Shown here one piece after another: positions 6,064-26,846 of a stretch of 31,795 nucleotides of DNA. Numbering within the stretch: position 1 is the stretch's first letter; each line of letters opens with the position of its first letter. The position numbers and the translations under genes were made by a program. The stretch lies in IMG/VR virus record IMGVR_UViG_3300025141_010110, positions 1 to 31,795 of that record; one strand, 5' to 3'. The notes beneath the pieces were generated by a model. The model had not been told where the DNA came from. It made no database searches and was given only the letters and a program-made list of their open reading frames with translations. This DNA comes from a virus.

Positions 6064-6749
6064 TTTTTGCCTATATGTGGATTTGTATCTCTGTAAAAAT
6101 ATTCGTTATCTCTAGAGTCACCATCCATATAATTAAACTTCAAATCATTCTTCCAAGCACAGTAATTAAAACTCAATTGGTCTCTCTTACTATTATACTT
6201 TATTTCTGTCCACCAATCTTCCATTGTCCTTATACAATCATCCTCATTGTGCCTTCTCAAAATTACCATACCTGTTATTAAACCATTGTTTGCTGGATAC
6301 CTTAAGATCCTATATCGTTCCATTTGTTTTTGAATAACATAGGGATTGTCTTTATAATTTAAAATACCCCTCTCTGGACTTACCTTCATATTTTTCTCAC
6401 CCAAATCAAATATGGTCTGAGCTTCATCATACGCAGAATTTCTAGCATCCAGATGATTGTTCCCATGACTAAAAAAAGCAACATTAGCATCACTTAGATA
6501 TTTCTCAATCAATTCATCCAAGTTACCCCTAACAGTCATATTACCATCTATAAAAATGCTATACTCATAATCCTGTAAGTGTCTGTGTGGTAGAACTTTA
6601 AATCTCTTAGCGTTTCTATTATTATCTTCGTATAATGATAAGCTATTATCTTCACTAAAACATTTCCAATCCCAGCCATCTGGTAAATTTTGTTTCTGAA
6701 CTTCATCGTAGCCACCGAATATAGAAGTATATACTACATTACTTGACAT
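6060..6749 (-). CDS. DUF616-type glycosyltransferase-like protein
   Basis: 229 residues with the DUF616 (TOD1/MUCI70-like) pattern: VVYTSIFGGYDEV at the N-terminus, then WDWKCFSED, the LPHRHLQDYEYSIFIDGNMTV segment with the conserved xDGN, and RYPANNGLITGMVILRRHN. Members are predicted glycosyltransferases and occur in capsule and O-antigen clusters. Its start lies 16 bases inside the upstream gene, and its stop is ATGA-coupled to the next. Its donor and acceptor are unknown. Confidence 0.75.
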   Translation of the reverse strand: MSSNVVYTSIFGGYDEVQKQNLPDGWDWKCFSEDNSLSLYEDNNRNAKRFKVLPHRHLQDYEYSIFIDGNMTVRGNLDELIEKYLSDANVAFFSHGNNHLDARNSAYDEAQTIFDLGEKNMKVSPERGILNYKDNPYVIQKQMERYRILRYPANNGLITGMVILRRHNEDDCIRTMEDWWTEIKYNSKRDQLSFNYCAWKNDLKFNYMDGDSRDNEYFYRDTNPHIGKK

Positions 6750-8173: not shown

Positions 8174-8829
8174 ACACCCCTCCTGACATTCATCTCTCTA
8201 CTAAAATTTTTATTGTAAAACATATTCTGTTCTTCTTGCCTTTCTATTGTTTTCGGATGATACAAGCTCAACTCCTCATGTGGTGGCAAATGCGAATAAG
8301 TTTTATAGCCCCTTATTACCTCATGAAGTGGTCTTTCCCAACGAATTTCACTACAACGCCGAAACACTCGCGCCTGATAGTCTGGATAGTTTACCCAACC
8401 CTTTTCTGTAACTCTCCAACCCCATCTATTAATATGTTCATCTTTCATACCATCAATTGTATTGACTCGCGGAATCCACACCAAGTCTACATCATTTATT
8501 TCTAATATTTGTTTTAACTGTTGAAGTAATGCCACATTTGGATACTCATCAGCATCTATATGAAATACATAATCACCTACAGAGTTTTCTATGATTGAAT
8601 TCTTTTGAGCAGCAAAGTTTTTATTAAGACTCCTCTGATATACCTTTATGGTTTTTGTATGACCATATTGTTGTGTCCAACTATCTAATACAAACCTTAC
8701 ACCATCATCCTCGCCATCAACACAAATTACTATCTCATCTTCAGCATCTGTTTTGTGAACAAGTACTTCTAATAACCTATTTAACTCATCAACCTCATTA
8801 TATACTGTGATACCATAACTAATTTTCAC
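8170..8829 (-). CDS. Family 2 glycosyltransferase
   Basis: 219 residues with a classical GT2 start: ISYGITVYNEVDELNRLLEVL, DEIVICVDGEDDG, and the donor-binding DYVFHIDADEYP with DxD. These are followed by YQARVFRRCSEIRWERPLHEVI, a region typical of GT2 proteins of the WaaE/LgtF type. It would be an inverting transferase using a UDP- or dTDP-sugar. It lacks any membrane helix, so it is probably soluble or peripheral. It overlaps the upstream hypothetical gene by 11 bases and the fusion gene by four. The assignment to GT2 is firm; the acceptor is unknown. Confidence 0.88.
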   Translation of the reverse strand: MKISYGITVYNEVDELNRLLEVLVHKTDAEDEIVICVDGEDDGVRFVLDSWTQQYGHTKTIKVYQRSLNKNFAAQKNSIIENSVGDYVFHIDADEYPNVALLQQLKQILEINDVDLVWIPRVNTIDGMKDEHINRWGWRVTEKGWVNYPDYQARVFRRCSEIRWERPLHEVIRGYKTYSHLPPHEELSLYHPKTIERQEEQNMFYNKNFSREMNVRRGV

Positions 8830-9265
8830 CGAGAAGTTCCTTTACATAAGCTGGTGGTAATCTTAAATCTTCCAAAAATACCTGACTCTTTCTAGCCTTA
8901 TCATAATTATAAGTTCTGTAGATTCCATGTTTTTTAATTAACGACTTCAATGATGTATAAACCTTTTGGGTATTTCCTTCTATCTCTACCCTATACACTT
9001 GTTTAGCTTCATCAACCACCTCAACATAACCAGCAGACTCCAATATATTCTGCATCACATTCGGCGCATTTATAGCTTGATTAGAAACCTCTAATTGTAT
9101 CCCATGCATCAAAAACTTACTTGATGGATTCTTCGCTTCATTCATTAATTTCGGTTCTAATACTAATATAGTCCTTCTTAAAATACGACCTTCCTTGTTC
9201 GGATATCTGAATGAGATGATATCTCCTCGTTTAGCTTTACCCCAACTATAAGTTAACTTACCCAT
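8819..9265 (-). CDS. Hypothetical phage protein, possible SH3-like N-terminus
   Basis: 148 residues that I do not recognise. The first 40 residues (KAKRGDIISFRYPNKEGRILRRTILVLEP) have the spacing of an SH3-like barrel start as in PemK-type proteins, but nothing else confirms this. The middle is helical and charged (APNVMQNILESAGYVEVVDEAK). The C-terminal half contains YTSLKSLIKKHGIYRTYNYD and ends in a basic-acidic tail. No signal peptide or membrane segment is seen. It overlaps the stop of the zinc-ribbon gene by one base. It sits between the two GT4-type transferases and the GT2 gene, so it may be an accessory of the glycan cassette. Confidence 0.55.
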   Translation of the reverse strand: MGKLTYSWGKAKRGDIISFRYPNKEGRILRRTILVLEPKLMNEAKNPSSKFLMHGIQLEVSNQAINAPNVMQNILESAGYVEVVDEAKQVYRVEIEGNTQKVYTSLKSLIKKHGIYRTYNYDKARKSQVFLEDLRLPPAYVKELLGEN

Positions 9266-9738
9266 TAAAGTTGAACCTTATCACCTGAATTTTCCAGCAT
9301 AATTCCCATAGCTTTACAAGCATCCATAAATTCAAACTGACCAAATACTTCAGGATTTTCTATATCCAATCTTTTATCATGACCATCATATTGATCTCGT
9401 TCTTCCTCAGGTACATCTACTACTTTAGCATAGTTCCAACTCCAATCAGTAACTTCACCGTCTGGATAAATAATACCTCGGGCACCCATATTAACTACTG
9501 ACGGAAACCAGACGAGCCCCCTTTCTTCATCTACTATCTTTAAATCATTCATAAGTTGGGTATTATTTTCAGTAGCCTTTTCCAAGTGTTCACTATCCAT
9601 AGCCATATATGAATTGGTAGTCATACCACAACCAAAACACATATACGATTCAAACGGCTTCTCTTCAACCAAAGTTTGTTCTACAAAGCAGTTATTATGT
9701 AAATCCTTACATAAAGGACAATTAGTTTTCTGTTCCAT
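9265..9738 (-). CDS. Small zinc-ribbon protein, function unknown
   Basis: 157 residues with a four-cysteine ribbon at the N-terminus: CPLC at residues 7-10 and CFGC further on (YMCFGCGMTTNSY). The rest has tryptophan-rich strands (GLVWFPSVV, VTDWSWNYAKVVDVPEEER) and no recognisable catalytic motif. It resembles zinc-ribbon hypotheticals of large phages. It lies 17 bases inside the end of the GT4-like gene and ends at the start codon of the next gene. DNA, RNA or protein binding are all possible. Confidence 0.6.
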   Translation of the reverse strand: MEQKTNCPLCKDLHNNCFVEQTLVEEKPFESYMCFGCGMTTNSYMAMDSEHLEKATENNTQLMNDLKIVDEERGLVWFPSVVNMGARGIIYPDGEVTDWSWNYAKVVDVPEEERDQYDGHDKRLDIENPEVFGQFEFMDACKAMGIMLENSGDKVQL

Positions 9739-11080
9739 GATTAACCTTTTTTAGTTGTGGCAAATTCATCTTTGGTGTATCTTTAGTTGTTTCATTCCCC
9801 ACCTTTTTAAGCTTTGGAAGTTTCAGATTCACCGCTTGTGGAATCTCTTCAAATTGTGGAAGATATTGATCTAGTATTTCTTCAAATTTCTTATTCATGC
9901 CTTCTAATGAAAAGTTAGACCTATTAGATATTGCTAGTCTTTTGGCTGGTAAAGTATATTTTTTGTATTCTTTGAAAACCTTAAACATCATTTGACCAGC
10001 ATACTGATAATTTACAGCAAACCATTGAGCACCTGGTTGTAACATTTCTTTTGGAACAGCTGACTCATGAACATCAATTAAAGTTCCTGGCAAAAGAATA
10101 GCATTATTACTATTAAGAAAATCCTGCTGACCACTCCAATTTGGAGCCATAACTGGTTTCTCTGAAAGAGAAGCTTCAAGTAATGGTCTGCCAAATCCCT
10201 CACCGTGTGTGAATGTTATATGAGCTTTCACCTTTGGATGATTATAAAGTTCATTCACCTCATCATCATGAAGATCTCCATGCAACAAATAGATATTAGG
10301 CAATTTACCCTTTACCGATTTTTTTACATCTTCGATTTTTTCCAACATCGTAATCCTATCTATAACAGAAAATGTAGCACCACTTGTTTTCAATAATAAT
10401 GCTGGTGGATTTTTCTTATTCTTAAATGTTTCACAAAATACCTTAACTAACATACCAGTATCTTTTCTATCCTGACCTAGATTACCTTGTAACCAATGAC
10501 CTGTATAGAGGAATAAGAATTTCTCTGGAATCTTCTCCATTTCATCAACCAATTCTTTGGAAAACTCTTTAGTCTTTTTATAGATATTTAAATCAGCGCC
10601 CTCAAACAAAACTTCCATTGGCTTAGTCATCTTTAATTCACCAATTTTTTGTTTTTCATTATTCATCTTATCATAGATAACAGAATTGAATGTGTTTTTA
10701 ACAAAATTAGATACAGCAATATTCATATCCATTCTATTCAAACCTTCAATCCACTCAGCCTTTGGAGCTGTATTTTCCATACCAGCAGTTACGCCAATAT
10801 TATATTTACCAACTGGAGTAAATTCATTTGGTACACTTACTTGAAAGTGAATGTCTGGTTGTCTTGGTAAACTATTATCTGTCAACAGCCTGTCAATAAT
10901 CAACTTGTCTTTGGGATCTTGTTCATTAAGAGCGTTCATTGGCGTATTCCCCCATCTCAGAGAATTTATATGAATATCAAATCTATCCATACCAATCAAT
11001 GCGTGAATCAAATCTCTTGTGTGAGCACCATAACCACTTCTGGTTGCTGGAGGCCCTGTAACTAATACTAATGGTCTCAT
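9722..11080 (-). CDS. GT4-like (GT-B fold) glycosyltransferase with a repeated basic tail
   Basis: 452 residues. The N-terminal domain starts LVLVTGPPATRSGYGAHTRDLI, the glycine-rich acceptor-side loop of GT-B enzymes. The C-terminal Rossmann domain has the GT4-type donor motif THGEGFGRPLLEASLSEKPVMAP, where the two glutamates (E in GEGFG and E in LLEA) form the EX7E pattern. After about residue 415 comes an extra tail with the LPxLKKV motif twice (LKLPKLKKV and MNLPQLKKV), separated by about 20 residues. The tail is outside the catalytic fold and may be a docking element. The gene is nine bases from the second GT4 gene. The family call is confident; substrates are unknown. Confidence 0.85.
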   Translation of the reverse strand: MRPLVLVTGPPATRSGYGAHTRDLIHALIGMDRFDIHINSLRWGNTPMNALNEQDPKDKLIIDRLLTDNSLPRQPDIHFQVSVPNEFTPVGKYNIGVTAGMENTAPKAEWIEGLNRMDMNIAVSNFVKNTFNSVIYDKMNNEKQKIGELKMTKPMEVLFEGADLNIYKKTKEFSKELVDEMEKIPEKFLFLYTGHWLQGNLGQDRKDTGMLVKVFCETFKNKKNPPALLLKTSGATFSVIDRITMLEKIEDVKKSVKGKLPNIYLLHGDLHDDEVNELYNHPKVKAHITFTHGEGFGRPLLEASLSEKPVMAPNWSGQQDFLNSNNAILLPGTLIDVHESAVPKEMLQPGAQWFAVNYQYAGQMMFKVFKEYKKYTLPAKRLAISNRSNFSLEGMNKKFEEILDQYLPQFEEIPQAVNLKLPKLKKVGNETTKDTPKMNLPQLKKVNHGTEN

Positions 11081-11088
11081 TCTATCTC

Positions 11089-12483
11089 CTAAGCATTAAA
11101 AATTGTGAATCGTTTACGTGGTGTCCATTTTTCAAAAGTAGTATTCATATGATCTGCAAAGTTCTGACACATAGCTTTTGCTGACATTTGAGCATCGTCA
11201 CTCATAACAAATTCATGACCTTTCAGACCACATTCCTTCCGTTTCTCTGGTCCCATATCATACCACTCTTTAAGAGCATCAGCAAAATCCTCAAATCGAG
11301 GTCTGTCATCAAAAATATATGGTGTTGGAATTGAACCCTGTAAACTTCGGTTTGAAGGCCAAACTGGTTTAGCCCACTCGCCCCAAGTTAAATCAGAATT
11401 ATCTTTCCATTTCTTTTCATCATGTAATGAATGTACCCAACTATAATCCTTAGCAGTAAGAAATTTATCTTTATACTTAAAACCACATTGGTCTTGCAGT
11501 CCACCAGTAACATTTACTGAAATTGGTGTTCCACACATTAAGGATTCACAAGTACCCAAACCAAAACCCTCATTAGAAGCCATATTGATTGTAACATCAG
11601 CCATATTATACAAATAAGATAACTGCTTATCAGTTAATTTCTTATGTGAAAATATAACATCATAATCAGGACACACATTCTTAACTACCTCTGGCAAATT
11701 AGTTCCATTGGGATCTTTGGGCTGGGTGTGCATTATCAGAGCACACTTTTTAGCCTTATCTTTTGGTAACATATCACAAAATGTTTTATATGCCATTATA
11801 ACATCACCAGGAAGTTTCCTACGAATGTTTCTATTGTTCCAAAATACTACAAAGTCATATTCTCTACCATCAACCACATTTCGTTTAAAGCTTAATAAAT
11901 CACCCCATTCTTTAATATTTAACTCATCAATAGGATAATAGTTTTTCTCATTAATTCCATGTGGTATATAAGTATTGTTCCACTCATTCGTAGGTACATT
12001 CTGCCTGACATTATCAACTATGTTAACTGTTTGTTTAGATATGTTCATTATCAAATCACAACTTTCATAGAAAGGCTCATTCCACATTGGATAAGGTAAG
12101 TCATCCCAAATGTTGTAATAGAATATTGGAATATCCATTCTTATCTCATGCTCCATTTGATATAACCATTCCCAAAACCTTGGATCTGTGTAATGTAATA
12201 TAGCATCCGGCTTTTCCGTTGCTATTAAGTGCCTTACTAATTCGGGAGTTCCATAACCACTAACAGGAACTATTTTTAGATATGCATCTTCTATACCAGT
12301 TTCTTTACGAACTGAATCGTTCATATCAATGAATTTACCTGCATCGGGATGTTTTATAGCACCCCCTACTTGAACCCATTGAAATTGTTTTAAAGTACCC
12401 ATAACTATCTCTCTGGACATTGTACCAACACCAGATGACATTCTTAAATCGTCTGACAGCAATAGAATCTTCTTTTTATCCAT
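11089..12483 (-). CDS. GT4-like (GT-B fold) glycosyltransferase
   Basis: 464 residues. Visible motifs are ILLLSDDLRMSSGVGTMSREIV (N-terminal GT-B loop), YIPHGINEKNYYP (the typical N-HG-D/E start of the donor domain), VVFWNNRNIRRKLPGDVIMAY, and MASNEGFGLGTCESLMCGTPIS (EX7E-type donor-binding motif). The C-terminal part contains aromatic residues and WTPRKRF. It is probably a retaining transferase using a nucleotide sugar. With the adjacent GT4-like gene it forms a pair that differs in N-terminal acceptor domains, so they may add different sugars in sequence. It starts eight bases after the small coiled-coil gene. Confidence 0.86.
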   Translation of the reverse strand: MDKKKILLLSDDLRMSSGVGTMSREIVMGTLKQFQWVQVGGAIKHPDAGKFIDMNDSVRKETGIEDAYLKIVPVSGYGTPELVRHLIATEKPDAILHYTDPRFWEWLYQMEHEIRMDIPIFYYNIWDDLPYPMWNEPFYESCDLIMNISKQTVNIVDNVRQNVPTNEWNNTYIPHGINEKNYYPIDELNIKEWGDLLSFKRNVVDGREYDFVVFWNNRNIRRKLPGDVIMAYKTFCDMLPKDKAKKCALIMHTQPKDPNGTNLPEVVKNVCPDYDVIFSHKKLTDKQLSYLYNMADVTINMASNEGFGLGTCESLMCGTPISVNVTGGLQDQCGFKYKDKFLTAKDYSWVHSLHDEKKWKDNSDLTWGEWAKPVWPSNRSLQGSIPTPYIFDDRPRFEDFADALKEWYDMGPEKRKECGLKGHEFVMSDDAQMSAKAMCQNFADHMNTTFEKWTPRKRFTIFNA

Positions 12484-12955: not shown

Positions 12956-13357
12956 CTAATTTATTATTACATATTTTTTTTCATTTTTTACAGCTTCGTT
13001 TAAAGCTGAGTTTGTTCCCTTAGATGTGATTCCCTTTGGTATGAATGCTACAACTACATCTGAATATTCAATCAGATCTTTATTTCTACTATGGTAATGC
13101 CAGACAGCATAAGGTTTACCATACTTATAACTTTCCAACACACAATGTTGGTTATACTGATAATGAGCAGGTGGAAATTCTGAATATTTTAAATCAAATT
13201 CCAAAGCATACTTTTTAGCATATCCATCAGCGCCATCTTTTTGACCACCACTTACTATTTCTAATTCATCACCCCATTTCTCTTTGAGCTTGTAGATGAA
13301 CTCTTGTACCCTTCTCTTATTTTCGTATTTACGACTTCCTATTATTGCTACTTTCAT
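12956..13357 (-). CDS. SLOG/YAcAr-type (DUF2493-like) protein
   Basis: 133 residues starting at the ATG at 13357, which has AGAGGAA upstream; the longer reading from 13426 is unlikely. MKVAIIGSRKYENKRRVQEF is the Rossmann-like first strand and loop of the SLOG superfamily, followed by EIVSGGQKDGADGYAKKYA, which matches the conserved GGxxGADxxA motif. The C-terminal half has DVVVAFIPKGITSKGTNSALNEA, matching the family's second nucleotide-binding strand. SLOG proteins bind nucleotides or nucleotide-derived ligands, and several act in stress and conflict systems. Its role here is unknown. It overlaps the previous gene by 29 bases. Confidence 0.75.
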   Translation of the reverse strand: MKVAIIGSRKYENKRRVQEFIYKLKEKWGDELEIVSGGQKDGADGYAKKYALEFDLKYSEFPPAHYQYNQHCVLESYKYGKPYAVWHYHSRNKDLIEYSDVVVAFIPKGITSKGTNSALNEAVKNEKKYVIIN

Positions 13358-13763
13358 AGTCGTTCCTCTTTTGCCTTTTAGGTGGTTTTTCTGATGTACA
13401 GAATTTAGCGCATTTGTGATACTCATCTAAACCATTTAGTATATCTTCTTTCTTATTATAAATATACTGAAACCTATGTCTATTAGTCTTATGAGCATTA
13501 TTTTTATCAATTATATCGAACCATATAAAATCATTAGTGGACAATTCACAACCAACTACTATATTAGTCTTAAAATACAATTTGGATTCATACTTTTTTA
13601 TAAAGCTTTTTAATTCAGCTGGTTTTAATTTACCATCTTCATACCACAATGTCAAGTAATATTTTATAGAATCTTTATGTATGATACCGAGCTTATTTAT
13701 AATCTCTTCTTCATATGGCTCATTTAAAAAATGAGATAAATTCATTCTCAGATTTACTTTCAT
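13329..13763 (-). CDS. Hypothetical phage protein
   Basis: 144 residues from the ATG at 13763, chosen because GGAG lies eight bases upstream; a GTG directly before it would add one residue. I do not recognise a family. The N-terminal half is helical and mixed-charge (MNLSHFLNEPYEEEIINKLGII). The middle alternates beta-like segments (YLTLWYEDGKL, FIWFDIIDKNN), and the C-terminal 20 residues are strongly basic (PPKRQKRNDYES). No membrane segment. It overlaps the SLOG gene, suggesting coupled expression. Confidence 0.5.
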   Translation of the reverse strand: MKVNLRMNLSHFLNEPYEEEIINKLGIIHKDSIKYYLTLWYEDGKLKPAELKSFIKKYESKLYFKTNIVVGCELSTNDFIWFDIIDKNNAHKTNRHRFQYIYNKKEDILNGLDEYHKCAKFCTSEKPPKRQKRNDYESSNNRKS

Positions 13764-15087: not shown

Positions 15088-15679
15088 GTCTTTTTATAAA
15101 AATTATTTTCTTATTTTCACCAGTCGGTGGTAAAAAAGTTTCTTTCAAATATTCAGCACTACTCCACTTTACTGAAAATGATTTTCTTTCTTTTGCTAAT
15201 CCAGCTGTTTCACCAATCTGCTTCCAATTGTCTGCTTTGTATACAGCACCATTGTTGCCACCAGCTACAAAGGTAATCAACCATTTTAAATCATCTCCAT
15301 ACTTTTTCTTCCATTCTATAGGTGCTTGTTTTCTAACCTGTTTCAATATCTGTGTTCCTGCATTTTTTATTGATTTTGTCATGCAGAATCTCCAGTTATT
15401 CGCTATAGTATTAAAATATGCTGGTTCTTTATATTCATCTGCCTTTTTACCTAAATGATTTAATATATCTTTAGGACAAGGATAAACAGAAGAACCAATT
15501 CCAATCATACCAATAGGCTTTTCAACACCCAATATATTAGTATAATCAGAATGGTATACTAACCAATCAATTCTTCTTCCGACAGATTTATGACTGGGAA
15601 CATAAGAATGATGGTTATTAATAATCTTCTTTACTAAGTTTGCAGCTGATTGTGTATTAACCATTTCTAGCGATATCAT
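15080..15679 (-). CDS. DruA/DUF4338- and Mom-like acyltransferase-fold protein
   Basis: 199 residues. It shares with the two other Mom-like genes a near-N-terminal NNHHSY (residues 21-26) and a late GGNNGAVYKADNWKQIGET (139-157). The stretch from ANNWRFCMTKSI to WITFV-like FVAGG resembles the DUF4338 (DruA) pattern: an NNxRF segment, then a long basic helix, then a TFVxxxxxGxxYxAxNWxxxGxT motif. It lacks the MHSRS element of the other two. DUF4338 proteins occur in the Druantia defence system and in phages; Mom proteins modify adenine. The start at 15679 was kept because it supplies the first beta-strand; an in-frame ATG at 15664 is possible. It overlaps the next Mom-like gene's stop. Function here is inferred only. 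Confidence 0.65.
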   Translation of the reverse strand: MISLEMVNTQSAANLVKKIINNHHSYVPSHKSVGRRIDWLVYHSDYTNILGVEKPIGMIGIGSSVYPCPKDILNHLGKKADEYKEPAYFNTIANNWRFCMTKSIKNAGTQILKQVRKQAPIEWKKKYGDDLKWLITFVAGGNNGAVYKADNWKQIGETAGLAKERKSFSVKWSSAEYLKETFLPPTGENKKIIFIKRLD

Positions 15680-16292
15680 TTTTTATTTGTCTTTTAATTT
15701 TTTTATTTAGATAGTATGTATAAATATGTTTTGGTTTTCTCTTCTTAAAAAATATATTTGGATCACCTTCATCATATCTCCGTTTTAACTCTCTACCATA
15801 AGGTCGATTTTTTTGGTTTAAAGAACGGCTGTGCATCTCTCTACCATCTACCATTAATACCTGACCAGCTGCAGTTTCACCTAAATAATCAAAGTTACTA
15901 GCTTTATAAATCGTACCAGCATGACCATAATGTTGGTCAGCAAAAGAAACTATAACCTCTATATCTGTATTCTGTTTTAGCCATCTCAAAGTTTTACCTA
16001 TAAAATAACTCTCTGTATTTTTGGGTGTATCATCAATACAACATAACCTTCTCAGCTCCATACACCTAGTGGGATTAATAGGATTGTACTTAGCTGCTGT
16101 ATGTGGCATTGATGGCATAGCATACATCATAGCACCAATCATTTTAGGTAATCCAAAGTTACCCTCTGTGTATAAGCCGAAGTGGTGATATGATTGAATC
16201 CCATTTACATTATGTGAATAGTGATTTTTCTCTATAAAGCTAACAAGCGCTTTTCGATTTATGTACTCAACTGTGAAGTCGGTAACACTCAT
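15657..16292 (-). CDS. Mom-like DNA modification protein (GNAT fold)
   Basis: 211 residues with the Mom layout: FIEKNHYSH (residues 19-27), a beta-rich section with IGAMMYA, MELRRLCC (78-85), SFADQHYGHAGTIYKASNF (116-134) and MHSRSLNQK (153-161). In phage Mu, Mom is a GNAT-fold enzyme that modifies adenine in DNA and protects against restriction; this protein has the same order of hallmark motifs. It would act on phage DNA in the cytoplasm. It starts ATGA-coupled to the gp62 gene, so it would be made with the replisome. The target base and the group added cannot be deduced. Confidence 0.78.
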   Translation of the reverse strand: MSVTDFTVEYINRKALVSFIEKNHYSHNVNGIQSYHHFGLYTEGNFGLPKMIGAMMYAMPSMPHTAAKYNPINPTRCMELRRLCCIDDTPKNTESYFIGKTLRWLKQNTDIEVIVSFADQHYGHAGTIYKASNFDYLGETAAGQVLMVDGREMHSRSLNQKNRPYGRELKRRYDEGDPNIFFKKRKPKHIYTYYLNKKIKRQIKNDIARNG

Positions 16293-16976: not shown

Positions 16977-17911
16977 TTTATTACTCCTAATAATTCAATT
17001 AACATAGCCATAGCATTTATCTCTTTATCAACTACCTGAGCATCTGACAACTGATACTTAGCTACAGTTAAAATACATTCTGCGATATGCCCTGTACCAT
17101 AATCATCTACCTCATCATAAAGTAGACGAAACAGATCAGCGAAGTCTGATATCTGATTATCAGCCAACATCTTTCTTATAGTAACGAAAGCATCTTTTTT
17201 ACTTTGTGTCTTTAAAACATTTACAATCTGTGATGAGAATACATTCACATTCAAATCTACAGCAACCAAATTATCTTGGTCTATTGACAGCGTACCATCA
17301 ACCACTTGCCTTTGAGCAAAGTTTATAACTCTACGAATATCAGGATAGCCACCATTAACTAATGTAGCAACATCATCCATTTCAAAAGTAACATTCTCTT
17401 CTTTCAGTATATTGTTTAGATGAACAGCAACTTCTTTTCTTGATGGTGGAACTATCTGAAATGGTTGACAGCGACTTTGTATCGGATCGATAATCCGTTC
17501 TACATAGTTACAAGTCAATATAAATCTAGTGTGTTTAGAGAAAGTCTCCATAAGGTTACGCAAAGCGGCTTGTGCGTTAGGCGTGATGTAATCACACTCA
17601 TCCAATATGATAACCTTCATATCTTTGAATCCAATGGTGGAAGCAAAATTACGAACCTTGTTACGGACTGTATCTACACTATTCTCATCTGAAGCGTTAA
17701 TGTATAATTGGTCACATTCTATATTATTAACCAACAATTTTGCCAGTGTAGTTTTACCTGTACCAGCCCTTCCGTACAAAAGAAGATGTGGTAAATCTCC
17801 ACTCTCTAAATATAATTTTATCTTACTCTTTAGATGTTCATTACCTATGTAAGTTTCAAGTAAATCAGGCCGATACTTTTCAACCCAAAGTGTGTGTTCT
17901 AATTTTCCCAT
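16973..17911 (-). CDS. 44: Clamp loader large subunit, gp44-like AAA+ ATPase
   Basis: 312 residues, close to T4 gp44 (319). Walker A is GRAGTGKTT (residues 47-55), Walker B is IILDECD (101-107), and the SRC arginine-finger motif typical of RFC-type clamp loaders is at 146-148 (PIQSRCQP). A C-terminal collar-like helical part follows. It uses ATP to open the gp45 ring and place it on primed DNA, with gp62. The start lies 13 bases inside the Mom-like gene upstream. All motifs are intact, so it should be active. Confidence 0.96.
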   Translation of the reverse strand: MGKLEHTLWVEKYRPDLLETYIGNEHLKSKIKLYLESGDLPHLLLYGRAGTGKTTLAKLLVNNIECDQLYINASDENSVDTVRNKVRNFASTIGFKDMKVIILDECDYITPNAQAALRNLMETFSKHTRFILTCNYVERIIDPIQSRCQPFQIVPPSRKEVAVHLNNILKEENVTFEMDDVATLVNGGYPDIRRVINFAQRQVVDGTLSIDQDNLVAVDLNVNVFSSQIVNVLKTQSKKDAFVTIRKMLADNQISDFADLFRLLYDEVDDYGTGHIAECILTVAKYQLSDAQVVDKEINAMAMLIELLGVIK

Positions 17912-18663
17912 TTATTGTTTTCTACCTTTATTTTTGTAATTTCAACTTCTTGTACATAATTCTTCGGATACTTCATTTCTGGATGTTTCATCACTTTACG
18001 AAATTTCCTATTCTCAGCCTTAGTGCCTAAGAAATAAATGTATCTATGTTTGGTAGCTTCTTTCTTCAACCAAAAGTCTCTACCTATAGCCTTTATTAAA
18101 TTCTTAGGAGCAGCTGAACCATATTTGGAATACACACTTCTACTGTGCATCCAATCATCATCTTCATTGACTCTCAAAGAGTATGTAGGTGCTAACTGAA
18201 AATCACCACAACCTTGGTATATCCAATTAGTAGCTTGATAGATAGCACCATCATGACTTTGTTCTGGATCTGCGTATGATATTAAAACCTTTATATTTGG
18301 AGCATTTTCTTTCATCCATTTGAATGTGGCTGAAATTACATGCGACTCAATATTTTTACCATAACCATCGTGTATAAATAGTCTCGTCAATTCCAAAATG
18401 TTCTTATTTTCTAATATCTCTTCCTTAAAGATAGAACCGATAACTCTTCTACCAACTGGAAATCCATAACAAGCAACTCCAATCAGCTTCTCTTCAGCCT
18501 CATCAAAAAACTGGTGTTGGTTGTCCGTCTGATAGAAAATTCCTAACGGATATCTACAAGAGGACAACCTACCACTATAGTGATTCTTTTCGATTATATC
18601 TCTAGCCAATGGTTTGTAAATCGGCCTTATAGATACCCTCGAAGTATCTACATAAGTCTCCAT
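17899..18663 (-). CDS. Mom-like DNA modification protein (GNAT fold)
   Basis: 254 residues, the longest of the three. KNHYS (26-30), a hydrophobic strand IGVACYGFPV, ELTRLF (91-96), SYADPEQSHDGAIYQATNW (129-147) and MHSRS (172-176) follow the Mom order, and the C-terminal 70 residues are basic (RKFRKVMKHPEM). It sits between the sliding clamp (no gap) and gp44, an unusual place, since these two are normally adjacent in T4-like phages. It would be co-made with the replisome, consistent with acting on newly copied phage DNA. Base and chemical group are unknown. Compared with the 211-residue copy, identity is limited to the motifs. Confidence 0.78.
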   Translation of the reverse strand: METYVDTSRVSIRPIYKPLARDIIEKNHYSGRLSSCRYPLGIFYQTDNQHQFFDEAEEKLIGVACYGFPVGRRVIGSIFKEEILENKNILELTRLFIHDGYGKNIESHVISATFKWMKENAPNIKVLISYADPEQSHDGAIYQATNWIYQGCGDFQLAPTYSLRVNEDDDWMHSRSVYSKYGSAAPKNLIKAIGRDFWLKKEATKHRYIYFLGTKAENRKFRKVMKHPEMKYPKNYVQEVEITKIKVENNKWEN

Positions 18664-19413: not shown

Positions 19414-19442
19414 TATATATCTACCAAGTTTATCAAAATCAA
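19414..19442 (-). promoter_or_regulatory. Possible promoter before the sliding-clamp gene
   Basis: On the minus strand TTGATT (19437-19442) and TATATA (19414-19419) are 17 bases apart in the 58-base gap after the polymerase gene. The gap is AT-rich, so chance matches are likely. Confidence 0.35.
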
Positions 19443-21934
19443 AAAAATCTTTCAATGGATGTCTTTTTATTTACTGGCTCATCCCACTTCAATGTGTCAT
19501 AAAACATCATAATCTTTTTCTCAAGCATCTGAGCATACATCTTCTTATAGTTAATATTTCGTTTAACAAAATCAATTATTTGTGGTGGATCTTCATATCC
19601 CTTATACCCACACGACTCCAATCCAAGCTCATTCTGTTTAAGATACACCCATCTAATCTTTTCCGAATTACCAATCTTCTCATACTTACCACCGACACCA
19701 AAGTGGTCTAGTAAATTATTATAGGTTATAGCAGCCTTAACATGCGCTGGAGCTCCCTTAGCAAACTGAGTAAAATTACCATTCTTACCAGCGCTGTATT
19801 TCTTCAAATTCTTCACACCTGTTGGCATTGCTATCTTATCAAAATCAACCAATTTCATAGACTCTTTAAAATTGATTATCCTCTCATCTATCTTATCCTT
19901 TGGAACAGTAGCTAAAATATCTTCTAATACATCTTTCAATAGTTTTCCCATAGCCTTTGGAAAATTACTACGGACTAAATCCAAGCCCTTCACATGCAAC
20001 TTATTTACCTTAACTCCATTGTCGTTAATGATTTTCATACCATATCGTTTCTTCACAATGAACAAACCTGACTTAGCAATCAACTCCTGTTTTATCTCAA
20101 ACCTATGCTTGTCTAAGTTCAAAAAATTCTTAGCAAAGTAATCATAAGACTTATTTAGAAATACCTGCATCTCATCAGCTACATCCAATATCCTCTTACT
20201 CATCATAGTCTCACTATCGAAGTCCATAGTAGGAAATCTCTTCTTAACCAATGGAAGCGCTGAGTAGAAAACTGAATCTGTATCGATATAAATACAATAA
20301 TCCTTATCATTTCCCAACTCTTTATTATAGAAATGATTGCCAATCTTCTTTGTAAATTTAATCAACTCTTGACCTGTAAGTGTAGTAGCCTCAGCGTTAT
20401 CTAAGTCATAGAACCTAAATACTGGCAAACCTAATACACCATATAATGAGTTTAGAACCACCTTCTGAATCAACTGACGACTTTTAAAGTATGTGTATTT
20501 TTCATTATCTCCAGCATCACCAAACTTCTTCATCAACTTTCTATACTCAACACGAGTATCGAACCACTTTGCCAGTAGGGCTGGAATTAAGCCCTGTTTA
20601 TCGCTACGATATAAGACACCATTGGAAGATACTGAAACCTCGTTCTTATCAAAGAAATCCTTCAGTTCTGTTTCCGTAAGCTTCCCCATCTCTTTTTCAT
20701 TGGACTCGAGGGTATAAGTTTTTGGCGTGCCCTTCAAGAACTCCTCAGCATCCCAACCTGAAAGTTTTCCAATTTTTGTTTCGGGTGATATATTAAGACT
20801 CATAATAACAGATGGATACATAGAAGTAATATCCAAATCGAATACCCAATCGTGTTTACCTCTTTGTGGTGATTGAACATAAGCTCCAGCAAACTTATCT
20901 CCACTACTCATATTCGGCTTCGATGGTTTATTAGGAGCAACCACTCCCAAATTTTTCAGATAGACTAATATAGCACCTTCTAAGTATCGAGACGAAAAAT
21001 ATACATCCTCATACGGAACATGACCTACATGACAGACACCCCTAGCCATATCAATGAAATCTAATTTATCGTGCATCTTCTTTACTAACCTAACATCATG
21101 GATATTATACTCTACATACTTATTGATATCATTTTCATATAAGTCATTAAGTGTTCCAGTATACTCTATCTTATTCTCACTCAACTCATGTTCTGCTACA
21201 GCATCTAATCTATATGAAGAAAGTTGAGTATATGTAAATAACTTATAAAGACCCAAATAGTCTAAACAACTAACACCAGCAAATAAATACCTTTTACGAT
21301 GTTTATTCCATTGAACTATCTGAATGGGTGAAAGCATATCACCGACATTCTTACCTGCCACTTTACAAATTCTATTATATAGATATGGCATATCAAATGT
21401 ATCTATATTCCAACCTGTAATAATAGTTGGTTTAAATTCTAAATACTTTACTAAAAATCTTTGGAGTAATGAGAACTCTGTATCAAAACTCTCTATAACA
21501 ACATTATCCTTTGATTGTAATGTTAGCTTCGCTTTCTCATCCAATACAAATGCGTAATATTTATCACTATTAGAATCATAAACAGCAATAGAAGTTATCT
21601 TATTATTAGCATCTTCTGGCATCGGAAACCCTTCTGTAACTTCCACCTCAATATCAATCATCATTATATTGTGATTGGCAGATAGTTCTTCTGAGTCTGT
21701 ATATTGGTCAACTAAGACCCTGGTTTCAGGTGGAACATCAGATTCAAAAAGATTGGGTGTTTCAGCGTCAAACTTAAATACTTTTCTCAGCTTATCACCA
21801 TACAGAGAAACGTGTGAACCATTTCTATCCCTTACATAAGCGTATCTCTTATATGGGATAGCATAATATCCTTTCTCATCATCCCAGATATGAACCTTTC
21901 GTGTTTTCATATCGAAGTAAATATTTTGATACAT
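19439..21934 (-). CDS. 43: Family B DNA polymerase, gp43-like
   Basis: 831 residues (T4 gp43 has 898). The exonuclease motifs are MMIDIEVE (D94, E96), GWNIDTFD (174-181) and YNIHD (276-280). The polymerase motifs are DLDITSMYPS (366-375, motif A), KVVLNSLYG (491-499, motif B) and IDTDSV (550-555, motif C). All catalytic acidic residues are present, so both activities should work. The C-terminal end SIERFF is a short hydrophobic tail of the kind that binds the sliding clamp. It copies the phage genome together with the clamp, loader and helicase. It has its own promoter upstream (21967-21996) just after the TonB-receptor terminator. No intron or split is present. Confidence 0.98.
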   Translation of the reverse strand: MYQNIYFDMKTRKVHIWDDEKGYYAIPYKRYAYVRDRNGSHVSLYGDKLRKVFKFDAETPNLFESDVPPETRVLVDQYTDSEELSANHNIMMIDIEVEVTEGFPMPEDANNKITSIAVYDSNSDKYYAFVLDEKAKLTLQSKDNVVIESFDTEFSLLQRFLVKYLEFKPTIITGWNIDTFDMPYLYNRICKVAGKNVGDMLSPIQIVQWNKHRKRYLFAGVSCLDYLGLYKLFTYTQLSSYRLDAVAEHELSENKIEYTGTLNDLYENDINKYVEYNIHDVRLVKKMHDKLDFIDMARGVCHVGHVPYEDVYFSSRYLEGAILVYLKNLGVVAPNKPSKPNMSSGDKFAGAYVQSPQRGKHDWVFDLDITSMYPSVIMSLNISPETKIGKLSGWDAEEFLKGTPKTYTLESNEKEMGKLTETELKDFFDKNEVSVSSNGVLYRSDKQGLIPALLAKWFDTRVEYRKLMKKFGDAGDNEKYTYFKSRQLIQKVVLNSLYGVLGLPVFRFYDLDNAEATTLTGQELIKFTKKIGNHFYNKELGNDKDYCIYIDTDSVFYSALPLVKKRFPTMDFDSETMMSKRILDVADEMQVFLNKSYDYFAKNFLNLDKHRFEIKQELIAKSGLFIVKKRYGMKIINDNGVKVNKLHVKGLDLVRSNFPKAMGKLLKDVLEDILATVPKDKIDERIINFKESMKLVDFDKIAMPTGVKNLKKYSAGKNGNFTQFAKGAPAHVKAAITYNNLLDHFGVGGKYEKIGNSEKIRWVYLKQNELGLESCGYKGYEDPPQIIDFVKRNINYKKMYAQMLEKKIMMFYDTLKWDEPVNKKTSIERFF

Positions 21935-21966: not shown

Positions 21967-21996
21967 AATATACAACATAAACCCTATATAAGTCAA
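21967..21996 (-). promoter_or_regulatory. Sigma-70-like promoter before the DNA polymerase gene
   Basis: TTGACT (21991-21996) and TATATT (21967-21972) on the minus strand, separated by exactly 18 bases, 33 bases before the polymerase ATG. Identical hexamers and spacing occur at 15058-15087. It would restart transcription after the terminator at 22014-22033. Confidence 0.65.
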
Positions 21997-22013
21997 GGGT
22001 TTTTTAGTAAAAC

Positions 22014-22033
22014 GGGGGCTATTTCTAGCCCCC
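22014..22033 (-). terminator. Rho-independent terminator after the TonB-receptor gene
   Basis: A perfect 7-base-pair GC-rich stem (GGGGGCT / AGCCCCC) with a 6-base loop, 13 bases after the receptor stop codon. On the minus strand it is followed by GTTTTAC and more AT-rich sequence. The other strand reads AATTTTTA after the stem, so it might work in both directions. Confidence 0.8.
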
Positions 22034-22046
22034 AATTTTTACCATT

Positions 22047-24770
22047 TTAGAAATTAACAGTTAGTCCTACATTGTAGTATCTTGGTGTACCCAAGAATAC
22101 TTCAGCGTTATGAGCTAAGTGAAGTTTATCACCGAACCCATTGTACTTACTGTTATCAACAGCGTCTTGAACATAAACATCGTCAAGAGCGTTAAAGACA
22201 TGACCACTAAGAGTCAAGTCAAGACCAGCAATCTCTGGTAGTTTGTATGATAGATGTAAGTCAAGTTTTGAATAGCCAGGAGCTTTCCATACTTGAGCTC
22301 TATCCTCATCACCATCTACTTCACGAGAATCTGGAGACCAGTCAGCATAATTGTCATCATACATTTTGTATAGACCTTGAATGCTAAGACCTTCAATTGG
22401 TTTAACTGTAAGACCACCAACATAAGCAGTTTGTGGCATATCACCAACCATCAATCCATCAAGAGCATATTCATATTGAGTAGTCATTTGTCCAACGACT
22501 TGACCTTCCTCATTATACTCCATCTCTTGATAATCACCAGTAGCATCACCATCGAACTTCCAAGTACCCTTACTGAACACTAAGTCCAAGTCAACCATTT
22601 CGTGAAGTGCAACTTTACCTTCAACTTCAACTCCAGTATGACTTTGGTTTACACCCTTCAGATAAATGATGTCTGTGTCACCTGAGTCTCCTTGTCCAGT
22701 TTCAACAGATTTGGTAAGGTTTCTGTCTTTCCATTGAGTATTATAAGAACTCAATTTAAGATCAACATTACCACTTCTGTATTTACCACCGAACTCAAAA
22801 CTGGTGAACTTTTCATTATCTGGATTAGAAGCAACTGTACCATCATAAGCAATCACATTGTCTAAGATGGGTGGCTTTTGAACATATCCAGCATTAGCGA
22901 ATGCTGACATTCTATCATCAAGATTGAATACACCACCACCTTTCACTTGGAAAGTTGTGATAGCATCAGCTTCAACTACATCAGCATCAACTGCAAAATG
23001 GTCGTGGTAAGTATACCCAATAGTGGACAACCCACCCATACCATAAAGGTTGAATTTAGCTACATCATATTTAGCCTGTACAAATCCACCTAACCAATCA
23101 ACTGTGGTTTCGTTGTGATAAGCGATAATATCACCTAACTTAACAACTTTACCATCAGCAGCATTAGCATCAGCATAATCAACATAGTAATCACCACCAA
23201 GTAGATCACGAACTTCACGAGCGTGTTCTATACCAGCAGTTCTCCAATCAATACCGACTTGTACTTCCAAGTCATCATTGACATCATAGTTCAATTTAGA
23301 AATCAAACCATAAGTGTTCTGTCTATTGATTGAATTACGAAGAATGCCAGTTGAACGATTTTCAGTATCAGACCAAGCTGAATCGACATTTGCTGAGTTC
23401 TCAGCAATTTCACCGTTCCAATCCCAAGTCCAAGGTGAACTCGCATACCAAGCATTATCTTCAACTGCAGGGAATCGTTTCACACTACCATAAGTACCAG
23501 TACCACCACCTGAACCACCAGACCAGTAAGCAACAGAACTCACACGAGTTTTATCATTTAATGTTAAGAAGTGATTCAAATTAACCAATGGTTTATGGAA
23601 ATAGTTCTCTCTTTCATTAAGAAAGTCTGAACCATATCTATCCACGGTTTTAGCACCATACATATAATAGTATTGTTGACCAGTATATGAAGCATCAACT
23701 GGAGCTACATTCTGATTGAACAACCTACCAGCTTCATGTTCAAATTTCTCACCTTCAGCGAAAGCAGCAACATCATATCCATCGATGTCACCAGCCAACT
23801 CTTGTGAGTAAGTTGCTATGTTCTGTTTGTATAGGTTATGTCCATGTCGTTGTGGGGCACCAACTGCATACAACTCAAATCGTTGGTCATCGCTTACAGC
23901 ATAAGAACCACCGAAGTAGTACGCCCAAGCATCTGTCCAAGTTCCATCAATGATACCATCACCAGTCTTACGAACTATTGTTCCACTAAGTGCTAGTTTA
24001 TCATTAATTAGACCTGAGTTATAGTTTAAAGTAGATTTGACAAATCCACCTTCACCTATTTCTTGCTTTGCCTTACCACCCTTTTCGTGGGAGGCAGGAT
24101 CTGTAATGATGTTCATTGTTCCACCAATAGAAGGCGTTGCAAGATTAACGGCTGATAGACCTCTTTGCATCTGAATGGAATTTGAAGCATCTGCGACACC
24201 ATCCCAATTAGACCAATAAACCCATCCGTTCTCCATATCATTCTGGGGAACACCGTTTATCATTACAGCAACATTTCGTTGGTTAAAACCTCTCACATTT
24301 ATACGAGCATCACCCGCGCCACCACCTTGTTGAGTTGCGTAAACACTTGGTGTTGTATTAAGCGCCATTGGAAGATCTTGAGAACCGAGCCTCATTTCCA
24401 TTTCAGCTTTATCAACAGTAGTATAAGCAACAGGTGTTTTTTCATCAGCACGAGAAGCCAAGACTTCAAGAGCTGACATAGCAAGTGCGTCAATCACAAG
24501 TGTGAAATCAGCATTTACATTGTTTTCACCCACCGTAACTTCTTGAGTTACAGATGAGTACCCAATGAATGAAGCAGTAATAGTATGGTTACCAGGATCT
24601 ATATCTACAGTATATGCTCCAGTATCATCTGATACTGTACCTAGATCTGTTCCCTCTACTACTATGTTTGCTCCAACCAAAGGTTCATTACCATCGGTTA
24701 CAACTCCAACAATAGATTGTGCAAACAATCCTGTCATCATCATAATCAATGCTATTAGATTACGTTTCAT
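22047..24770 (-). CDS. TonB-dependent outer-membrane receptor with carboxypeptidase-D-like domain
   Basis: 907 residues, full length. Residues 1-18 form a signal peptide (basic start, hydrophobic core, cleavage after LFAQ). Residues 19-92 are a carboxypeptidase-D regulatory-like domain (GVVTDGNEPLVGANIVVEG, then GAYTVDIDPG). A TonB-box-like LEVLASRA (101-108) follows, and then the plug (about 112-225), with INVRGFNQRNVAVMINGVP and GGTMNIITDP. The rest is a beta-barrel ending YYNVGLTVNF with the terminal phenylalanine expected for barrel assembly. It would bind a ligand (siderophore, vitamin, glycan or peptide) at the host surface and import it using TonB. The layout is typical of Bacteroidetes/Marinimicrobia. 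The ribosome site TAAGGAG is good. It has its own leader and terminator, while both neighbours are phage genes. Substrate unknown. Confidence 0.95.
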   Translation of the reverse strand: MKRNLIALIMMMTGLFAQSIVGVVTDGNEPLVGANIVVEGTDLGTVSDDTGAYTVDIDPGNHTITASFIGYSSVTQEVTVGENNVNADFTLVIDALAMSALEVLASRADEKTPVAYTTVDKAEMEMRLGSQDLPMALNTTPSVYATQQGGGAGDARINVRGFNQRNVAVMINGVPQNDMENGWVYWSNWDGVADASNSIQMQRGLSAVNLATPSIGGTMNIITDPASHEKGGKAKQEIGEGGFVKSTLNYNSGLINDKLALSGTIVRKTGDGIIDGTWTDAWAYYFGGSYAVSDDQRFELYAVGAPQRHGHNLYKQNIATYSQELAGDIDGYDVAAFAEGEKFEHEAGRLFNQNVAPVDASYTGQQYYYMYGAKTVDRYGSDFLNERENYFHKPLVNLNHFLTLNDKTRVSSVAYWSGGSGGGTGTYGSVKRFPAVEDNAWYASSPWTWDWNGEIAENSANVDSAWSDTENRSTGILRNSINRQNTYGLISKLNYDVNDDLEVQVGIDWRTAGIEHAREVRDLLGGDYYVDYADANAADGKVVKLGDIIAYHNETTVDWLGGFVQAKYDVAKFNLYGMGGLSTIGYTYHDHFAVDADVVEADAITTFQVKGGGVFNLDDRMSAFANAGYVQKPPILDNVIAYDGTVASNPDNEKFTSFEFGGKYRSGNVDLKLSSYNTQWKDRNLTKSVETGQGDSGDTDIIYLKGVNQSHTGVEVEGKVALHEMVDLDLVFSKGTWKFDGDATGDYQEMEYNEEGQVVGQMTTQYEYALDGLMVGDMPQTAYVGGLTVKPIEGLSIQGLYKMYDDNYADWSPDSREVDGDEDRAQVWKAPGYSKLDLHLSYKLPEIAGLDLTLSGHVFNALDDVYVQDAVDNSKYNGFGDKLHLAHNAEVFLGTPRYYNVGLTVNF

Positions 24771-24789
24771 AAACGTTCTCCTTACTTTG

Positions 24790-24806: not shown

Positions 24807-24840
24807 GACGCATTTTTCTACAGGTGCGTCAACTGCCTGT
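24807..24840 (-). promoter_or_regulatory. Predicted H-type RNA pseudoknot in the receptor leader
   Basis: In the transcript (minus strand), ACAGG pairs with CCUGU (5 pairs) and GACGCA pairs with UGCGUC (6 pairs). The second stem begins in the loop of the first and ends beyond it. Loop 1 is 5 bases (CAGUU), no base separates the stems, and loop 3 is AGAAAAA (7 bases, A-rich). This is the classical geometry of H-type pseudoknots. A TTGACG, -35-like, overlaps it without a convincing -10. The rest of the 87-base gap between the reductase and receptor genes holds the palindrome and ribosome site. Confidence 0.5.
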
Positions 24841-24857
24841 CCGCTTGCATGTGAATT

Positions 24858-26846
24858 CTATTCATTATCTGATATTGGTATTATTTCACAGACATCATTA
24901 TTACAAAACTTATCAACCTCTGCTTCTTCACCCTCAATACCCACAAAGCTTAATCTACCAAGTTTATTAACTTGTTTATTATATTCCTTTTCATCTATAG
25001 CTTCATATGGCATTTGTTTGTAAGCTCCTAATGGATGTCTTGGTAACAATGATATACCCTTTAGTCTATATTGAAAATAATTCAACACATGAGGTAATTG
25101 TTCTACTTCTGTTTCAGGATTGAATGTCGCAGTACAACTTACTTGGTTATCTGCCCAATGTCTTTGAAGAAAAGCGGCTAAACTGAATTGTTCCCAAATC
25201 GAAAGTTCAGCCGCAGTTCTTATACCCTCCCCGACATCAACGGGCACCTCGACAACCATCGTAGAATCTTCTGATCCAAATGCTGGTTCTAACTTGTAAC
25301 CTGCTTTTTCTAACGGTTTAATTAATTCCGAGTGTTTTGACAACCTCATTCTACGAATATAAAATCTACTTTCTGGATAGTGCATACCTGGAGTAGCACC
25401 AACTAATAAAGATACTGTACCACTTGGTTTTACACTTGTGGTTTTAATTGACTTTGGAACAGCAAACCAATCGGAATACATTTTATCCCATTCTTGTATT
25501 GTGTCATACCCATCTTCTAACCAAGTTCTTAATTCTTCCATTCCATTTTTTGTAATAAATTGTGCAACACCACTTACTGAGCAACCAATTCTCCTATTCC
25601 TCAACATAACACGATTGGTTTCAGGCCAATGAGTTCTACCGAGAGTTACTGTCTTAGCATATAAATAAGCATACTTTAATGTTCTCTGATAATCCTCTAA
25701 TGAATCGTGATTAGCTGGAAAAGTTTCTACTAAACAACATAACTCATAACTCTCCAATGATTGTTCTAAACAAGGATTTCCACCTGCAACTCTATGGTCT
25801 TTATTGTCACCGCCATTTTGCATACGAGAGAATTTTCTCATATTTTCTAACCAAGCAAATCCTGGTTCACCATTATCTGAAATTCTTTTACATACATCAG
25901 TATAATCCATACCAAGTTCAGCAAAGATACTATTATTACTTGTCCATCCATATTGATCCCTATGCGGGTTAACTTTATAATTTTTTAAATCTAAATATTC
26001 TTCGTCGTGTGCATCACCAAATACAATCTCCGCTGTTCGTCTTACATTACCAGCTACGACACATTTACCAATAAGGTTCATTATATCCACAATTGTAGTT
26101 ACTGTAATTGGTTCTCCAACATTTATATTTAATACATTTCTTATTTCTTTATGAATTTCTTTTAGTGGTTCGTGACCACTTGAAACTCCACCAAAGCCTT
26201 TGATTACGGCGCCAGCTGGTCTGATTTGGTTGTAGTCGAATTGAACTTCTGCTGTCCCATGAAAATAACTTTCTAATAACAATCGTAATGATTCAACCCA
26301 ACCTTCTCTTGTATCAGGTATCACATATTCTTCTATGCCTCTATTCGGATTAGGCAATTTAACCACAACCTCACCAGCACCTTTTGTATCGAAACCAACT
26401 CCTACACCCAACATACTAGCATCCATTAAAAATGTAAATGGTTTTGAATAATCTTCCTTTAGTGTTTTAGTTGATACAAAAGCACAATTGTTTAATGCTG
26501 CATATAACTTCTTTTCTTCTGTGATTGCTGTTCCCATAGCCCATAAACCACGGCCTGGAGGTAAAAACTTCATATTAAACATTCGGTTATACATTTCTTG
26601 AGCTGATGCTTGTGCTTGCCAAGGATTCCAACCAAGTTGATGTGAGTCAATCCAATTTTTTTGCATAGAGTATGTTCCCTCTACGACTCTTCTGATGGTT
26701 TCCCACCATCTCTCATTTTTTCCATTCTCTTTTATTCTTGAATAGGTTCTCATATAAACTAATTCACCTAATCCATTGAAACCAAACGGTGGCTTTTTCC
26801 GTCTGTACTTATTTATAAAATTTTCTGATAATGTAAACTTTTCCAT
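24858..26846 (-). CDS. nrdJ: Adenosylcobalamin-dependent (class II) ribonucleotide reductase
   Basis: 662 residues, related to the monomeric triphosphate reductase of Lactobacillus leichmannii (739). The key residues can be matched by position: C121 (in LNNCAFVS), C359 in NPCLEQ with N357 and E361, C370 eleven residues later, and the C-terminal re-reducing pair C648 and C653 (CNNDVC). In the Lactobacillus enzyme the corresponding active-site cysteines are 408 and 419, also eleven apart. It converts ribonucleotides to deoxyribonucleotides using vitamin B12 coenzyme and needs no oxygen or second subunit; no nrdB-like gene is present. It supplies DNA precursors for phage replication. It has a possible own promoter. 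A host that makes or imports B12 is implied. Confidence 0.93.
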   Translation of the reverse strand: MEKFTLSENFINKYRRKKPPFGFNGLGELVYMRTYSRIKENGKNERWWETIRRVVEGTYSMQKNWIDSHQLGWNPWQAQASAQEMYNRMFNMKFLPPGRGLWAMGTAITEEKKLYAALNNCAFVSTKTLKEDYSKPFTFLMDASMLGVGVGFDTKGAGEVVVKLPNPNRGIEEYVIPDTREGWVESLRLLLESYFHGTAEVQFDYNQIRPAGAVIKGFGGVSSGHEPLKEIHKEIRNVLNINVGEPITVTTIVDIMNLIGKCVVAGNVRRTAEIVFGDAHDEEYLDLKNYKVNPHRDQYGWTSNNSIFAELGMDYTDVCKRISDNGEPGFAWLENMRKFSRMQNGGDNKDHRVAGGNPCLEQSLESYELCCLVETFPANHDSLEDYQRTLKYAYLYAKTVTLGRTHWPETNRVMLRNRRIGCSVSGVAQFITKNGMEELRTWLEDGYDTIQEWDKMYSDWFAVPKSIKTTSVKPSGTVSLLVGATPGMHYPESRFYIRRMRLSKHSELIKPLEKAGYKLEPAFGSEDSTMVVEVPVDVGEGIRTAAELSIWEQFSLAAFLQRHWADNQVSCTATFNPETEVEQLPHVLNYFQYRLKGISLLPRHPLGAYKQMPYEAIDEKEYNKQVNKLGRLSFVGIEGEEAEVDKFCNNDVCEIIPISDNE

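Follow-up and report, generated by a model that had tools for sequence, protein, structure and literature searches.

SusC-like TonB-dependent receptors (TBDRs) have been described in two megaphages, LR745206 and the marine Mar_Mega_1, the latter's being proposed to raise uptake (PMC9723777). The receptor described here differs from the Mar_Mega_1 protein in that it falls below the SusC/RagA cut-off and occurs in hundreds of T4-like viral stretches. Among the viral proteins of BFVD, A0A8D9FQQ5 ('TonB-dependent receptor SusC [uncultured marine phage]') alone matched the fold at full length, with 11% identity to the present receptor in a structural alignment. FhuA, Fiu and PqqU have the plug-barrel fold in common with it, but at about 13% identity, and the present receptor carries an extra CarboxypepD-like domain. 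A core TBDR of Candidatus Neomarinimicrobiota (Marinimicrobia, SAR406) has the same domain order, about 55-70% full-length identity and a largely invariant plug; it differs in standing alone without a pseudoknot leader, and the viral clade is separate from it. For the leader the described counterpart is that of T4 gene 32, where a ribosome-binding region with less structure comes after a translational-operator pseudoknot (PMC535899). The present leader is likewise a 5' pseudoknot of a T4-like phage mRNA ahead of a less structured ribosome-binding region, but it precedes a receptor gene. A limited literature search found no earlier description of this leader or of a TBDR in T4-like phages of Marinimicrobia.

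The window, that is, the whole stretch of DNA analysed, covers an entire IMG/VR virus record (31,795 bases), and all genes recognised in it lie on the minus strand. Read in the direction of transcription, it encodes a gp32-like SSB, UvsX, a 5'-3' exonuclease, a DnaB-like helicase, a ribonucleotide reductase (RNR) and the TBDR, followed by a family-B polymerase, a sliding clamp, a Mom-like gene and a clamp loader. The phage is T4-like. The RNR scored 359 bits with TIGR02505 (cut-off 340). The genes at the locus are:

24858..26846, minus strand: adenosylcobalamin-dependent (class II) ribonucleoside-triphosphate reductase, upstream of the TBDR (TIGR02505)
22047..24770, minus strand: TBDR, 907 aa (ORF, Pfam, AlphaFold2, Foldseek)
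19439..21934, minus strand: family-B DNA polymerase (gp43-like), downstream of the TBDR (profile matches)

Elsewhere in the window two Mom-family (DNA modification) genes were seen at 17899-18663 and 15657-16292; in the relatives L004 and L168 the helicase and RNR genes are separated by a Mom-like gene. A cluster of glycosyltransferase and methyltransferase genes at 6734-12483 possibly serves surface or DNA glycosylation. A SLOG-family (YspA, cpYpsA-like) protein is encoded at 12959-13426.

The TBDR reading frame is open and intact. Its product was divided as follows:

residues about 1-18: putative signal peptide (by eye)
residues 19-97: CarboxypepD-reg-like domain (Pfam)
residues about 98-108: putative TonB-box/linker (conserved segment)
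residues 110-218: plug (Pfam)
residues about 230-907: beta-barrel (predicted structure)

Pfam CarbopepD_reg_2 matched with 62.7 bits (cut-off 32.2) and Plug (PF07715) with 55.7 bits (cut-off 23.9), and no Pfam barrel model matched. The N-terminus is signal-like by eye, and residues 98-108 hold the conserved segment SALEVLASR. In an AlphaFold2 model built from 60 sequences the beta-barrel is well supported and the plug poorly modelled. DSSP assigned about 22-24 barrel strands, and Foldseek with the model returned TonB-dependent transporters, e.g. Fiu, PqqU and FhuA, with E-values down to 3e-28. By its plug and its 22-stranded outer-membrane barrel the protein is predicted to be a TonB-dependent transporter. 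The SusC/RagA model TIGR04056 gave 61 bits, below its cut-off of 368. No SusD-like partner is present, the neighbours being RNR and polymerase, and none was recognised beside the host homologues, where families were judged from their sequence. The sequence-only reading had described an intact 907-residue receptor with signal peptide, CPD-like domain, plug and barrel between RNR and polymerase; reading frame, Pfam, TIGR02505 and fold bear out the intact frame, the CPD-like and plug domains, the barrel and the neighbours. The plug is also matched by phrog_5687, a PHROG of unannotated function, which may represent a viral TBDR family.

The following signals flank the gene:

24807..24844, minus strand: H-type pseudoknot leader of the TBDR (covariation in relatives)
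24840-24836 with 24824-24820, minus strand: pseudoknot stem 1, ACAGG/CCTGT
24830-24825 with 24812-24807, minus strand: pseudoknot stem 2, GACGCA/TGCGTC
24778..24782, minus strand: Shine-Dalgarno-like AGGAG of the TBDR (sequence; conserved in viral leaders)
22013..22034, minus strand: intrinsic terminator after the TBDR, GGGGGCTAGAAATAGCCCCC and then a T-rich tail (sequence)
21967..21996, minus strand: promoter-like site of the DNA polymerase, TTGACT-N18-TATATT (sequence)

The leader element, which reads GCGGACAGGCAGTTGACGCACCTGTAGAAAAATGCGTC in the window, stands upstream of the TBDR in nearly all viral loci. Its two stems interlock and its third loop is A-rich. Among 35 distinct leader sequences, 98.4% of cells are paired and 6 of the 11 pseudoknot pairs show double-sided changes; 31 cells with such changes were observed, against 7.5 in shuffles (0/500), and slid versions collapse. 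In IMG/VR the element was found in at least 108 assessable cases, each directly 5' of a TBDR, some of these loci being overlapping copies of the same contigs; ten more ran off the contig end. It was not found in host loci or in 245 host genomes with up to two mismatches allowed, and a search of Rfam 15 gave no match up to E = 10. The leader is a phage-specific, strongly covarying H-type pseudoknot and a new, probably regulatory RNA. A gp32-type operator was considered and rejected, since no similar pseudoknot precedes the SSB gene. L072 has this leader and the TBDR elsewhere, among sugar-modification genes and away from any RNR; because both recur together at this other place, leader and TBDR travel together.

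A terminator-like hairpin follows the TBDR in 72 of 79 viral loci, compared with 9 of 79 shuffles. Sites of the TTGACT-N18-TATATT type are as frequent in shuffles, while the position of this one and its TTGAC box are conserved in relatives. The cassette reads as leader RNA, coding sequence and terminator, followed by the polymerase's own promoter-like site. The leader, strong terminator and polymerase site noticed earlier are all present. The moron-like layout proposed with them is also supported, with an own leader and terminator and a polymerase that restarts from its own promoter. The leader is more than a ribosome-binding region in that it contains the conserved pseudoknot.

When 2.9 million viral contigs were scanned, 325 IMG/VR stretches proved to encode relatives of the TBDR; the best 80 of the 325 share 74-86% identity along almost their entire length. 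Nearly all of these 80 have the gene order RNR, TBDR, 0-2.6 kb, polymerase, which answers the earlier suggestion to look for the gene at the same position in related phages, and SSB, UvsX, exonuclease and helicase lie upstream in almost all relatives. A polymerase-anchored scan, unbiased for the TBDR, found it in 28 of 31 distinct loci with sufficient upstream sequence, and an RNR-anchored scan in 18 of 48. The viral reading frames comprise 105 full-length, 37 cut by contig ends and one broken. Contigs may be near-copies across metagenomes, and locus counts are not independent events. An assembly chimera or misbinned host DNA could be suspected from a single metagenomic fragment of 31.8 kb in which GC is a little higher in the TBDR gene (0.39-0.41) than around it (about 0.33-0.35). 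The recurrence of the same junctions in more than 100 viral contigs from many metagenomes refutes this reading, which is left with a negligible probability; the chimeric junctions, or absence from relatives, that would have spoken against the locus were not what was found. Isolated phages yielded none with a close TBDR. The nearest isolated-phage polymerase, that of Microcystis phage Mel-JY01, is 47% identical, and no TBDR is annotated in the region around it. In L270, L271 and L277 the polymerase gene occupies two ORFs with about 200 extra bases; an intron, an insertion and a frameshift are the candidates.

The TBDR is missing from 42 of 132 RNR-polymerase intervals. Empty sites are seen in L150, L158, L181 and L224. 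In L150, L158, L181 and L211 the stop codon of the RNR gene overlaps or adjoins the TTGACTT box of the polymerase, and at the empty site of L158 the stop TGA falls within it. Where the cassette is present the RNR has a different C-terminal tail, and for this reason many RNR matches end at residue 655. L227 carries a deletion scar (4428-4557) in which the last TBDR codons and the terminator are kept between RNR and polymerase. The interval also gains other genes beside or instead of the TBDR, namely dUTPase, peroxiredoxin, a 504-aa protein of unrecognised family and glutamine synthetase (21 loci, 15 with TBDR); L157, L028, L025 and L044 exemplify this insertion hotspot. Being apparently host-derived, equipped with its own regulatory signals and variable in relatives, the TBDR fits the description of a moron or auxiliary metabolic gene.

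Distances correlate at 0.63 between RNR and TBDR (Mantel), at 0.26 between TBDR and polymerase and at 0.77 between helicase and polymerase, a pattern which suggests that RNR and TBDR move as a pair among phages whose cores have diverged. The correlation has been weighed as a sign that the two form one functional unit, the receptor taking up cobalamin for the neighbouring B12-dependent RNR. That RNR is AdoCbl-dependent and immediately adjacent in almost all loci, and a comparable RNR occurs in few host genomes. The linkage is nevertheless explicable by adjacency alone, the receptor has no specific resemblance to BtuB, and no cobalamin riboswitch lies near the host homologues (Rfam, run on the window and seven host loci, found none). 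The TBDR is absent from many phages that have this RNR, as the RNR-anchored scan indicates, and the TBDR of L072 has no RNR by it. The B12 link was set aside on the riboswitch result, the RNR-positive phages without TBDR and L072, and cobalamin uptake is regarded as improbable.

Cellular relatives of the TBDR are nearly all from Neomarinimicrobiota, and 105 of 245 genomes of this phylum encode a homologue at E ≤ 1e-150, the best with 70% identity. The database search and tree proposed in the sequence-only reading place the viral TBDRs, L083 aside, in one cluster within the core Neomarinimicrobiota TBDR family in both of two trees. Strict viral monophyly was set aside, as the host sequence L083 falls inside the viral cluster on a long branch. 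L083 is a 4.3-kb host contig whose TBDR has a tandem paralogue; it could be a transfer back to the host or an artefact. L082, filed under a Flavobacteriales MAG, and L125, filed under a Euryarchaeota MAG, encode RNR along with further phage genes and are themselves phage contigs. The phylogeny indicates that the viral clade derives from a core Neomarinimicrobiota TonB-dependent transporter, with a clustered viral origin. Of the Bacteroidetes/Marinimicrobia host type named earlier the Marinimicrobia part is supported and the Bacteroidetes part is not. The host is likely a member of the Marinimicrobia, an assignment that rests on the TBDR gene; a polymerase closely matching that of the phage was not found in the host genomes. 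The cassette is a likely marker linking these phages to their host lineage. The host homologue is a solitary gene, with neighbours such as one for a DnaG-like primase, and no transport operon was recognised at its loci; the host operon was accordingly dropped as a clue to the substrate.

Median dN/dS is 0.14 for viral TBDR pairs and 0.125 for host pairs; the viral genes are under purifying selection. These values bear on whether the TBDR is a selfish hitchhiker, a moron kept by hotspot recombination with a benefit outside infection or none. The varied cargo of the interval and the tolerated deletion in L227 would suit such an element, but the low dN/dS, the near absence of broken copies and the conserved, dedicated leader RNA do not, and it is considered very improbable.

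Across viral and host proteins 55% of the plug positions are invariant; the TonB-box region is conserved and the plug is the least divergent part of the viral proteins. The ratio of extracellular-loop to strand divergence, with topology from the model with the poor plug, is 1.06-1.09 in viral and 1.27-1.65 in host proteins, and no diagnostic residue separating viral from host TBDRs was found. Disguise or escape predicts fast surface loops and a same-substrate transporter predicts the observed pattern, which favours nutrient import. The explanation preferred, with somewhat better than even confidence, is a phage-domesticated Neomarinimicrobiota transporter cassette that imports the nutrient of the host version during infection. 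The TBDR would be synthesised in the infected cell, placed in the outer membrane and powered by the cell's TonB-ExbBD. Judging from its conservation, it would take in whatever nutrient its host counterpart takes in, and uptake would go on or increase during phage replication; the leader most likely governs when or how strongly the TBDR is translated. Other metabolic cargo in the same interval, e.g. glutamine synthetase, was counted in favour of import. Some points count against it. Outer-membrane proteins are generally stable, and for this reason the benefit of an extra copy within one infection is not obvious; with no recognised transport operon at the host homologue, the context does not name the nutrient; and the conserved loops speak against the other roles only indirectly.

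TBDRs are usually met as the entry points of phages, and here a large marine T4-like group conserves one. Their classic role as phage receptors counts for superinfection exclusion or receptor replacement, in which the phage copy would dilute, replace or disguise the host receptor used by competitors, and so does the host version being a widespread surface protein. Phage PA-2 sets a precedent: it encodes a porin that takes the place of OmpC, the receptor of PA-2 itself. Phage proteins of the Cor type (phi80, N15) inactivate FhuA (PMC11436027) and were also counted for exclusion; they resemble the present case as phage genes bearing on a TonB-dependent receptor, but Cor inactivates the host receptor and the present phage encodes the receptor itself. 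Against exclusion, the surface loops of the viral clade are not accelerated, no residue tells viral from host proteins, and a pure decoy would not need the strongly conserved plug and TonB-box. Exclusion is judged unlikely. Among the roles first proposed, import fits best, and replacement or masking is weakened. The pseudoknot, the clustered viral origin, the RNR linkage, the empty sites and the TonB-domain protein of relatives go beyond what the sequence-only reading had noticed. If nutrients are imported, these phages alter both the cell surface and the uptake of a phylum of bacteria that is abundant and uncultured, and TBDR genes would join the auxiliary metabolic genes relevant to ocean nutrient cycling. 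The leader is in addition a new RNA element, short and open to experimental test.

Of 43 long contigs of the phage group, 9 encode a protein of about 104-112 aa whose only domain is the TonB C-terminal one (PF03544, above its cut-off), and such proteins occur at 40 loci in IMG/VR. Examples are L423:2946-3260, L424:2747-3070, L425:2994-3326, L426:3112-3447 and L427:2933-3271. The N-terminus was read for five and is signal-like; no inner-membrane anchor or proline-rich linker is recognisable by eye. Several of the genes precede the SSB gene, at distances from a few hundred bases up to about 1 kb. The window record ends just upstream of SSB, where relatives carry the gene, and contains no such protein. 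About 8 of 31 long TBDR-positive and 1 of 12 TBDR-negative contigs encode it, counts that come from fragments and show no statistical link. The protein is apparently exported and might either serve TonB boxes itself or act as a competitor of the host TonB, making it a possible partner or inhibitor of the TBDR. A broader reading would join the receptor clade, a new pseudoknot class (riboswitch or protein operator) and, in some relatives, the exported TonB-domain protein, modulating or competing for TonB-dependent receptors, into a phage-run uptake module; this is considered unlikely. Pseudopilin-like genes of the FTLIELVMVMVILGILAAVA type were also seen in the relatives L424, L425, L426 and L072 (17464-19412), and in L424-L426 they adjoin the TonB-domain gene.
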